Origin: Pirellulaceae bacterium
GTDB taxonomy: Bacteria > Planctomycetota > Planctomycetia > Pirellulales > Pirellulaceae
Reading direction: 5' to 3'
NCBI GenBank assembly: GCA_023382975.1
Contig: JAHDXO010000002.1
Coordinates: 23,434 to 87,433 of the forward strand
DNA length: 64,000 bases
Below are positions 36,853 to 39,940 of the stretch, piece by piece. A model generated the notes under the pieces. That model ran no database searches and was not told where the DNA came from. It saw only the letters and a list, made by a program, of their open reading frames with translations. Made by a program: the position numbers and the translations under genes. Positions within the stretch are counted from its first letter, which is position 1. Every line of letters begins with the position of its first letter.

Positions 36853-37452
36853 CTAAAACTTCTGCCGACCCACGAGGGCGTCGGCCAATACCTCTTTGTT
36901 GGTGTATTCCAGAATGCTGCCGGTCGTGACACCTCGAGCCAAGCGGGTGATTTGGATCGGCAGTTCCGACAGCAGATTGGAGATAAAAAGCGCCGTCCCG
37001 TCGCCTTCGACCGTTGGATTCGTCGCCATGATTACTTCGCGAAAGCCGCCTGCCCGCACTCGCTCGACCAACGCATCGATCGTCAATTGTTCGGGACCGA
37101 TGCTCTCCAGCGGGGCGATGCGGCCCAGCAGCACGTGGTACAGACCCTGGTACACGCCGGATTGCTCCAGTGACATCAGATCCCGCGGCTGCTCGACGAC
37201 GCACAACAGCGACGAATCGCGTTTGAGATCCCGACAGATCGAGCAGCGTGCCGTCTCGGACAGATTGAAGCAGATCTCGCAATACCGCACGTTTTCGCGG
37301 ACGTTGCGAATGGCGTCCGCCAAGGCCAACGCCTCGTTCTTGTGAACTCGCAGAACGTGGTAAGTCAGCCGTTCGGCCGATTTGCGACCGATTCCGGGCA
37401 ACTTGGCGAATTCGTCGATTACCTTGGCAACCGATTCGCTGAGCAGGGTCAT
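36853..37452 (-). CDS. recR: Recombination protein RecR
   Basis: A 199-residue protein of normal RecR length: helix-hairpin-helix [18 protein letters not shown], the four-Cys zinc motif in [16 protein letters not shown], and a Toprim domain ([34 protein letters not shown]). RecR acts with RecO (and RecF) to load RecA on single-stranded gaps. It is the last member of the conserved dnaX-ebfC-recR order, with 11 bases between ebfC's stop and its start. Confidence 0.97.
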
Positions 37453-37463
37453 GGCATCCTCCG

Positions 37464-37835
37464 CTACTTCTGCTCAGAATCATCCTCGGGATTCGAAATC
37501 TGGGCGATGGCTTCGTCCAAGCCGGCAATGTTCAGCCCGTCGGTGATCGATTTCATGGCTTCGAAGTGGCACTGCTTCGCCTTGGCCAGCGCCTGGTTGA
37601 TGGCCCCCGGCAACAGATCCTCGATCATCTCTCGCTCGCCGCGCTCGACCAGCGTTGCATCGATTTTGACACGCAGCACTTCGCCCAATCCGTTCGCCTC
37701 GACATCGATCATCCCGCCCCCGGTGCTGGCCGAGACGCGCTGCCCCTTCAGCCGGTCGTTGACGGCTTGCATCTTGCCGCTGAATTGCTGAGCCTGCCGC
37801 AGGAGCGACGCCAGATTTCCTAGTCCTTTGAACAT
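37464..37835 (-). CDS. ebfC: YbaB/EbfC family nucleoid-associated protein
   Basis: A 123-residue protein with the YbaB fold: start [22 protein letters not shown], central strand block [19 protein letters not shown], and [20 protein letters not shown]. These proteins form DNA-binding dimers and are almost always between dnaX and recR, as here. The C-terminus is a short acidic tail (NPEDDSEQK). Confidence 0.95.
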
Positions 37836-37862: not shown

Positions 37863-39803
37863 CTACGCTTCTTGTCTCTCGTCCACCCGCACAATTTCGG
37901 CGTCGAACAAGGCCATCGTTTCTTGTATCAGGGGATGCCGCTCAATTTCGCGCATTTTTTGAACTTGGTTTCTCCCGCTGGCTCGTCGCGCGGCGGGCCG
38001 TGGACTGGCCTCCTCGGCCACCGCAAAGTCGATGCGAATCGTCCGACCAGCCAGTCGGGCGAGCGTCTGTTCCAGTTTTCGCTTGACGTCAGCACGCTCG
38101 CACCACTCCTTGTTATACGTCGCTTTTAGCCCGACTACCAGGACGTTTGGCGCGGGAATTGCTAACGATTCGTAATTTCCAGCGATATCGGAAGTCATGC
38201 CCCCAATTTCGTCCACGGCGCGGCGATACTGCTCTTCCGCCAACTCGCGTGTCCATTCGGGCGATCCAGCCGCCGAATAGGTTGCTCGTTCCTCTTCGAT
38301 TGGGGCAGGAACCGGGGGTTGTGCAGCCGCTTCGTTGGGGCGCGTGACCGATTGGCGCTCCTGCTGCCGTGGTGAGGAAGCAACAGGAGTCGGCATCTCG
38401 GGCCCGTCGTCCGGCACATTCTCGCGACTCTGGTTCGCATTCAGCCCTGCTTCTTTGACCTCTTTCGAAGCATCGACGGACCGTGCCGCGGATTCGGGTG
38501 AAGCGGGCGAGCGAACGGTCAGTGATTCATTTTTTTTTTGATCGCCGCGCGGTGCGGGGGCTGCCGGAGGCATTTGCGAGGCAGCAGGACCGCCCGAAGG
38601 AGTCATGGGCACGCCCTGTTGAAAATGAGCGATCAGCGCTGAAAGATCGTCCAGACGTTCGAGGTGGCAGACGCGGACCAGGGCCATCTCGACCAGCGTT
38701 CTGACCTGAGTGGTCTGCCTCATGCGGGCGAGCGCCTGATCCAGGATCTGAACCGCCGCCAACAGGGTCTCCAGACCGTACTGCCGACCGGTCTCGGCCA
38801 ACTGAGCGTGATCGGCGGTGGCCGCGTGCAGCAGCAGATCGGCCGGACAGCCGACCACGGCGGTCATCATATCTCGGAAGTAGCCGAGCAATTGTTCGGC
38901 CATCTGTCCGATATCGACACCCTCTCGGACGGCCGCATCCACCTCGGCCAACGCCCCGGCGGCTTGTCGATCGATCAGATGCCGCGCGATTGTCGCCAGA
39001 CGACCGCTCTGCGCCGTGCCCAGCATCGAATGGACATCGTACTCGGTAACCCGATCACCGCAGAAGGACAGCAGTTGCTCCAGCAGGGATTGGCTGTCGC
39101 GCATCGAACCGCCCGCGCGCCGAGCCAGCAAGTGCAACGCCGCATCTTCCGCTTCGCGCCCTTCGGACGTCACGATAAACCGCAGTCGCTCGACGATCTC
39201 GTCGGTGGCGACCGGCGCGAAATCGAATCGCTGGCAGCGCGACAGCACCGTGATGGGAATCTTGTTCGCTTCGGTCGTGCAGAACACGAACTTGACGTGT
39301 TCGGGCGGTTCTTCGAGCGTCTTCAGCAGCGCGTTGAAGGCCGCCTGCGTCAGCATGTGGACTTCGTCGATGATATAGATCTTGAAGTGTGCGCGGCTGG
39401 GTCGGACGTTGACGTTCGAGCGCAGCTCACGGATCTCGTCGATCCCCCGGTTACTGGCCCCGTCAATCTCCAGCACGTCCACATCGTCGCCCGACGCGAT
39501 GCTCAGGCAACTGTCGCACTGGCCACAAGGGTCCGCGGTCGGTCCTTCGACGCAATTCAGGCACTTGGCGAAAATCCGCGCCGTCGAGGTCTTGCCAACT
39601 CCGCGTGCTCCGGTGAACAGGTAAGCGTGCCCCACCCGGTTGGTCAGGATCGCGTTGCGCAGGGCTTGGGCAACCTGGTTTTGGCCGACCAATTCAGTGA
39701 AACTCTTTGGCCGATATCGGCGGGCAACGACAACATACTCGCCCGCCTTGTCCGAGGTGGGGATACTCGCGTCACTTCGGAGGGATGCAGAGTCGCTGGG
39801 CAT
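37863..39803 (-). CDS. dnaX: DNA polymerase III subunits gamma and tau, DnaX
   Basis: A 646-residue tau form. The AAA+ clamp-loader domain carries Walker A GARGVGKTS, a Cys4 zinc module (CVEGPTADPCGQCDSC region), the DEVH box in IYIIDEVHMLT, and the SRC motif in VLSRCQRFDF. Domain III follows to about residue 385, then a Pro/Ala/Glu-rich linker and a tau-specific C-terminal domain (about 515-646). At codons 422-425 the coding strand has ten A in a row, where either frame slip meets a stop within five codons, giving products of 425 or 427 residues, the length of E. coli gamma. ATG 39803 is chosen; the 17 codons upstream overlap the SRP RNA 3' region. Confidence 0.96.
   Translation of the reverse strand: MPSDSASLRSDASIPTSDKAGEYVVVARRYRPKSFTELVGQNQVAQALRNAILTNRVGHAYLFTGARGVGKTSTARIFAKCLNCVEGPTADPCGQCDSCLSIASGDDVDVLEIDGASNRGIDEIRELRSNVNVRPSRAHFKIYIIDEVHMLTQAAFNALLKTLEEPPEHVKFVFCTTEANKIPITVLSRCQRFDFAPVATDEIVERLRFIVTSEGREAEDAALHLLARRAGGSMRDSQSLLEQLLSFCGDRVTEYDVHSMLGTAQSGRLATIARHLIDRQAAGALAEVDAAVREGVDIGQMAEQLLGYFRDMMTAVVGCPADLLLHAATADHAQLAETGRQYGLETLLAAVQILDQALARMRQTTQVRTLVEMALVRVCHLERLDDLSALIAHFQQGVPMTPSGGPAASQMPPAAPAPRGDQKKNESLTVRSPASPESAARSVDASKEVKEAGLNANQSRENVPDDGPEMPTPVASSPRQQERQSVTRPNEAAAQPPVPAPIEEERATYSAAGSPEWTRELAEEQYRRAVDEIGGMTSDIAGNYESLAIPAPNVLVVGLKATYNKEWCERADVKRKLEQTLARLAGRTIRIDFAVAEEASPRPAARRASGRNQVQKMREIERHPLIQETMALFDAEIVRVDERQEA
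38530..38539 (-). other. A10 slippery run in dnaX (probable programmed slippage site)
   Basis: The coding strand reads C-A10-TGA across Gln422-Lys-Lys-Asn. One added A puts TGA directly after the run (425 residues). One lost A gives Met-Asn-His then TGA (427 residues). Thermus thermophilus dnaX uses a comparable A-run for transcriptional slippage to make gamma. Placement after domain III and before the tau-only region fits this exactly. Confidence 0.7.
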
Positions 39804-39826: not shown

Positions 39827-39940
39827 GACGTCTGCCCGAGTGCGCCCCCCGCACAAGAGTACCCCGCTTATGGCTGCTCCTGTTACGGCCTGACCAGGTT
39901 CACGGATCCCCCTCGCGAGGGACGCACTCCGACAGACGTC
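39827..39940 (-). ncRNA. ffs: Signal recognition particle RNA (4.5S-type)
   Basis: On the reverse strand the S-domain core reads GGTCAGGCCGTAACAGGAGC followed by AGCC, matching the conserved 4.5S apical region (GGTCAGG...GGAAGCAGCC). The ends pair perfectly: GACGTCTG at 39940-39933 with CAGACGTC at 39834-39827, continued by GGAGTGCG with CGCACTC, giving one long hairpin of about 114 bases. TTTTT at 39825-39821 just after it completes a terminator-like 3' end. The gene sits between infC and dnaX; SRP RNA beside dnaX is also the order in Bacillus. It binds Ffh to deliver nascent membrane proteins. Confidence 0.93.

Follow-up and report, generated by a model that had tools for sequence, protein, structure and literature searches.

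The dnaX locus and its A10 run

The window, a stretch of 64,000 nucleotides from the genome of a Pirellulaceae bacterium, carries on its reverse strand a dnaX gene with a small SRP RNA gene directly upstream. The model TIGR02397 (dnaX_nterm) scores above its cut-off in the window's genome, and Pfam places DNA_pol3_delta2 at residues 40-198 of DnaX, DNAX_ATPase_lid at 202-249 and DNA_pol3_gamma3 at 252-386. Codons 422-425 hold ten consecutive A's, past the end of clamp-loader domain III at residue 386 and before the tau-specific region. From codon 422 onward the coding strand reads CAA AAA AAA AAT GAA TCA CTG A, the run starting as xAA at codon 422 and ending as AAx at codon 425. The features are as follows.

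37863..39803, reverse strand: dnaX, full-length (tau-type) product of 646 aa (ORF, Pfam, TIGR02397)
38530..38539, reverse strand: A10 run, codons 422-425 (CAA AAA AAA AAT), T10 on the forward strand
38527..38529, reverse strand: TGA closing the frame with one A added (A11), an immediate stop giving 425 aa
38519..38521, reverse strand: TGA closing the frame with one A missing (A9), after Met-Asn-His, giving 427 aa
38540..39803, reverse strand: segment common to both products, three clamp-loader domains and the start of the linker (Pfam end residue 386)
37863..38529, reverse strand: remainder of the linker and tau-specific C-terminal region, unslipped product only (the tail aligns with relatives)
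39835..39929, reverse strand: small SRP RNA gene (Rfam RF00169, 50.8 bits)

Reading the sequence confirms what the original prediction had said of the run, namely an A10 at codons 422-425 with alternative products of 425 and 427 aa, and the Pfam domain limits bear out its placement between the clamp-loader domains and the tau-specific domain. The predicted gamma would thus comprise the 38540..39803 segment plus 4-6 residues. Given that an alternative GTG-started dnaX ORF of 663 aa overlaps the small SRP RNA gene, translation probably starts at the ATG at 39803 (646 aa), so that the earlier codon numbering of the run stands. Downstream of dnaX, short ORFs read like ybaB (37464-37835) and recR (36853-37452).

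As had also been claimed, the run is the longest homopolymer of the window, which is 62.4% GC and has a single T7 as runner-up. In 100 dinucleotide shuffles of the window, the mean number of A10 or T10 runs was 0.06, with at least one run in 4 of the 100. Pattern searches of the 10.46-Mb genome found runs of A10 or longer at four places and isolated A9 runs at 15, the dnaX run being the only A10+ place inside an identified gene. The other three are poor coding candidates, the third of them an A15 in low-complexity sequence on scaffold C60. The remaining two, at G000 contigs C5:108827 and C60:38641, adjoin N stretches, and their homopolymer quality is doubtful.

Conservation of the run and of its flanking stops

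We searched three same-genus genomes and found a dnaX match in two, both 85-86% identical over the N-terminal 400 residues. Both relatives have an A10 at codon 422 in the same phase, written GAA AAA AAA AAG and followed by other stops, at 427 and 430. The linker protein on either side of the run is hardly alignable between the window and these relatives; the length and position of the run have outlasted the neighbouring sequence.

The survey was extended to 139 non-redundant dnaX genes of the window's class, 135 of them decidable, and took in a few named planctomycete records from a second collection; the genes are those closest to the query out of 297 sampled genomes. In 113 of the 135 genes, an A-run of 9-11 occupies the corresponding position shortly after the clamp-loader domains, at codons 402-459; this frequency of 84% applies to the nearer half of the sampled genomes. 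The run is A9 in 64 genes, A10 in 47 and A11 in two, and A8 was found in none of the 135. A run of A9 or longer occurs with tau in the 0-frame in 112 genes and with gamma in the 0-frame in one (L040), while the remaining 22 are run-less, their longest A-run measuring 3 to 7. Neither A-runs longer than 7 before codon 380 nor T-runs longer than 8 in the linker were seen in the surveyed class genes. The comparison with related genomes proposed in the original prediction thus finds the run unbroken, at codon 422 in each same-genus relative and at the corresponding position in the 113 class genes, and the erosion by synonymous G that it had named as a refutation is not seen, as genes hold either 9-11 A's or at most 7.

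The run is nevertheless not universal, since it is absent from dnaX of Ca. Anammoximicrobium (L042), the nearest sister genus sampled. The linker of that gene has a tandem PVSGA/PVSGT repeat instead. With no run in L042 or in 21 further class genes, a slippage-made gamma would be dispensable in places. In a FastTree phylogeny of the N-terminal domains, with weak support for many inner branches, run-bearing genes group strongly together, and 16 changes fall within the class. This most naturally suggests a single ancestral run that was lost repeatedly, while change counts alone cannot separate gain from loss. L040, a class member with A11, has a 0-frame that ends at the run and a 626-aa frame with one A fewer, which reflects either a reversed register or a homopolymer assembly error.

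Synonymous resampling by each gene's own codon usage kept a run of A9 or longer in 9.6 of the 112 genes; outside the run, the lysine codons of these genes number 802 AAA and 1173 AAG. After the run, the median distance to the first stop is 3 codons in the frame with one A more and 5 in the frame with one A fewer, compared with 26 and 24 codons, respectively, at control positions elsewhere in these linkers. Within 12 codons, 77% of genes have a stop in both wrong frames, versus 7% in the control (maximum of 5000 draws, 17%), and among 74 representatives below 75% identity, the share is 76%, against 12% after codon-order shuffling and 17% after synonymous resampling. The excess of stops in both wrong frames, together with the resampling result, indicates that the run and its two stops are selected as a unit, and the flanking stops, whose comparison across relatives had likewise been proposed, are strongly selected in both alternate frames.

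RNA polymerase or ribosome

On this sequence evidence, the A10 run is very probably a programmed transcriptional slippage site of the Thermus type, with a predicted gamma of 425 or 427 aa, about 46 kDa in size, and a tau of 646 aa. RNA polymerase would sometimes add or drop A's at the run, yielding a mixed pool of dnaX mRNA. Unslipped mRNA, or mRNA changed by a multiple of three, would give the 646-residue tau, whereas any other change of frame would lead to a stop within a few codons and to a gamma-type subunit of 425 or 427 residues, which would keep the AAA+ and collar domains without the tau-specific C-terminal region. The slippage site would be ancestral to the class and lost several times. 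That it is RNA polymerase rather than the ribosome that slips we infer from the considerations below; the proportion of gamma to tau and any use of gamma by the window's organism are inferred likewise.

The known system closest to this proposal is dnaX of Thermus thermophilus, for which transcriptional slippage at an A9 is described (Larsen et al. 2000, as related in PMC1088944 and PMC5009743). The two genes share a single tau ORF, an A-run of at least 9 past the clamp-loader domains, near stops in both non-zero frames and two tRNA-Lys, and neither needs a Shine-Dalgarno (SD) motif or a hairpin. They differ in phylum, in the run itself (A10 in the window's genome, A9-A11 over the class) and in its position, codon 422 of 646 or about two thirds along in the window versus seven-eighths along in Thermus, by the account in PMC1088944; in the window, moreover, slippage is predicted from the sequence. 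The claim of a Thermus-like device in this lineage is very probably right, given the anatomy, the A9 threshold, the conservation and the selected stops, with the correction that the run is not universal.

Alternatively, the ribosome may slip on the run, gamma being produced by -1 frameshifting at A_AAA_AAA or by sliding on AAA codons. Every run contains the A_AAA_AAA heptamer, at which some ribosomal slippage may occur, -1 frameshifting makes gamma in E. coli dnaX, and a sister family, f23, has the full ribosomal layout at an A7. However, a -1 ribosomal site needs seven A's, while class genes have 9-11 and none has 8, an argument in favor of the polymerase. The stimulators of ribosomal frameshifting are also at or below background, which again favors the polymerase: no SD-like motif lies within 22 nt upstream of the window's run, SD-like motifs upstream of the class runs show no enrichment (10.7% versus 11.5% in the control), the downstream stem-loop at the window's run is not significant (z of -1.3 against mononucleotide shuffles), and downstream folding in the class is weaker than in control windows. 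Both stimulators are present in f23, which serves here as the contrast. Finally, the frame with one A fewer, which is out of reach of -1 shifting, is no less tightly closed than the other, at the median of 5 versus 24 codons given above, and this too argues for the polymerase. Sliding on poly(A) could enter both frames and is the form of ribosomal slippage hardest to exclude; as a whole, we regard slippage by the ribosome as improbable.

E. coli and the window would have in common that tau and gamma come from one gene and part at nearly the same place. E. coli dnaX has A_AAA_AAG with an upstream SD, a downstream hairpin and one closed frame, whereas the window has an A10 without SD or significant hairpin and with both frames closed; its run is followed by T, so that it offers only the heptamer A_AAA_AAA and no in-frame A_AAA_AAG. 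The presence of two tRNA-Lys species has been offered as a reason for polymerase slippage in Thermus (PMC5009743), and both tRNA-Lys CUU and UUU are encoded in the window's genome. Given that tRNA-Lys matches occur in all sampled class genomes, run-bearing or run-less (44 genomes checked), and that run-less genomes also have both species, the tRNA argument does not discriminate.

Slippage by RNA polymerase was further weighed against three readings in which the run is not a recoding site. The first, which takes the run for a side effect of a conserved Lys-Lys(-Lys) motif in the linker protein, draws on the fact that all runs encode KK or KKK in a linker otherwise rich in Pro and Ala, but we rejected it as very unlikely on the synonymous resampling, since the same protein written with each gene's own codons retains the run in only about 10 of 112 genes, and on the codon phases, as the run occurs in all three, with a variable next residue (N, K, T, S or M); the closing stops would also be left unexplained. 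Equally doubtful is a phase-variable tract that toggles tau by replication slippage: homopolymers do mutate fast, and the other register is seen in L040 and in a few genes outside the class, but this reading was rejected because the full-length frame is templated in 112 of the 113 run-bearing class genes, across widely differing sequences. An origin of the run by chance or as an assembly artefact, long homopolymers being error-prone in assemblies, has a negligible probability and is refuted by the recurrence of the run in 113 class genes, including one-contig genomes (e.g., G051, G090, G230, G002, G065 and G136).

Other dnaX layouts and the decoding of dnaX in the phylum

Few genes of the phylum sample outside the class have the run. 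Tau is in frame, with both wrong frames closed, at the A9-A10 of four loci (L264, L268, L294 and L324), and gamma is in frame at the A10 of two (L272 and L280). Gamma is likewise in frame at an A10 in seven of 30 verrucomicrobial loci (L347-L350, L354, L357 and L363), from the class of the Opitutaceae genome L112: the 0-frame stop comes right after the run (398-404 aa), and one extra A leads to a tau of 518-572 aa. The recurrence of this gamma-first A10 layout in seven genomes rules out an assembly error. Antonov et al. 2013 (PMC3711429) described two-ORF dnaX genes with poly-A, for which they proposed transcriptional realignment. Those genes share with the window an A10 in dnaX, but there the 0-frame gives gamma and tau needs a slip, whereas in the window the 0-frame is tau and runs to 646 aa; their gamma-first form is found here in L040, L272, L280 and the seven verrucomicrobial genomes. 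In L269, dnaX ends at 396 aa and a separate tau-like frame with its own ATG begins about 10 nt after the stop, a split gene or an assembly frameshift.

A different layout was found in f23, the sister family from the same phylum. There, exactly A7 precedes the 0-frame stop in 26 of 33 genes, and G_GGA_AAA stands in place of A7 in three genomes of one genus and in L382. An SD-like motif lies upstream in 73% of the 26 A7 genes, and mean downstream folding energy is -21 kcal/mol versus -10 kcal/mol in the window's class. Using an HMM built from C-terminal tails of the tau type, we located the tau domain in the -1 frame in 26 loci and in the +1 frame in none; the HMM missed it in L277-L279, where direct reading reveals a conserved -1 frame of 84 codons, 51-64% identical. 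The cassette (L277-L279, L377-L406) consists, in order, of an SD-like GGAG, A_AAA_AAA or G_GGA_AAA, about 6 nt including the stop, and a GC-rich hairpin. Judged by its sequence, this cassette looks like one for -1 ribosomal frameshifting with gamma as the ordinary product, that is, an E. coli-like cassette in which the roles of gamma and tau are exchanged.

In family f30 (L270, L271, L276, L281, L284, L307, L408-L425), 15 of 18 loci have the tau domain beyond the gamma stop, in the -1 frame. A C_CCN stands no more than one codon ahead of the stop in 17 of 18, a strong hairpin follows directly after it, and no A-run was seen in f30 dnaX. These features possibly mark a different -1 recoding site. 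That the -1 frame encodes the tau domain past the post-stop hairpin in these 15 loci weakens the reading of this hairpin as a mere terminator.

No account of slippage in a planctomycete dnaX turned up in the literature searched, which covered few subscription papers. Devices of this kind have been described before; what appears to be new is that one is conserved across a class of Planctomycetes and that neighbouring families have other devices in its place. We consider it reasonably likely that the whole class inherited gamma formation by slippage as an ancestral trait under selection and that the decoding mechanism of dnaX has been switched repeatedly within the phylum. The devices would then be slippage at A9-A10 in the window's class, -1 frameshifting at A_AAA_AAA or G_GGA_AAA with SD and hairpin in f23, -1 frameshifting at C_CCN before a stop followed by a hairpin in f30, and no visible device in some genomes; in f23 and f30, gamma rather than tau would be the product of ordinary reading.

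The importance of gamma has long been disputed. The class-wide conservation, at the nucleotide level, of a site predicted to make gamma would provide independent evidence for selection on making it, and the natural losses in sister lineages would provide matched pairs for testing its role. Moreover, since neighbouring families reach the same split by apparent ribosomal frameshifting, the phylum may serve as a natural experiment for studying how recoding at the level of transcription and at that of translation substitute for each other.
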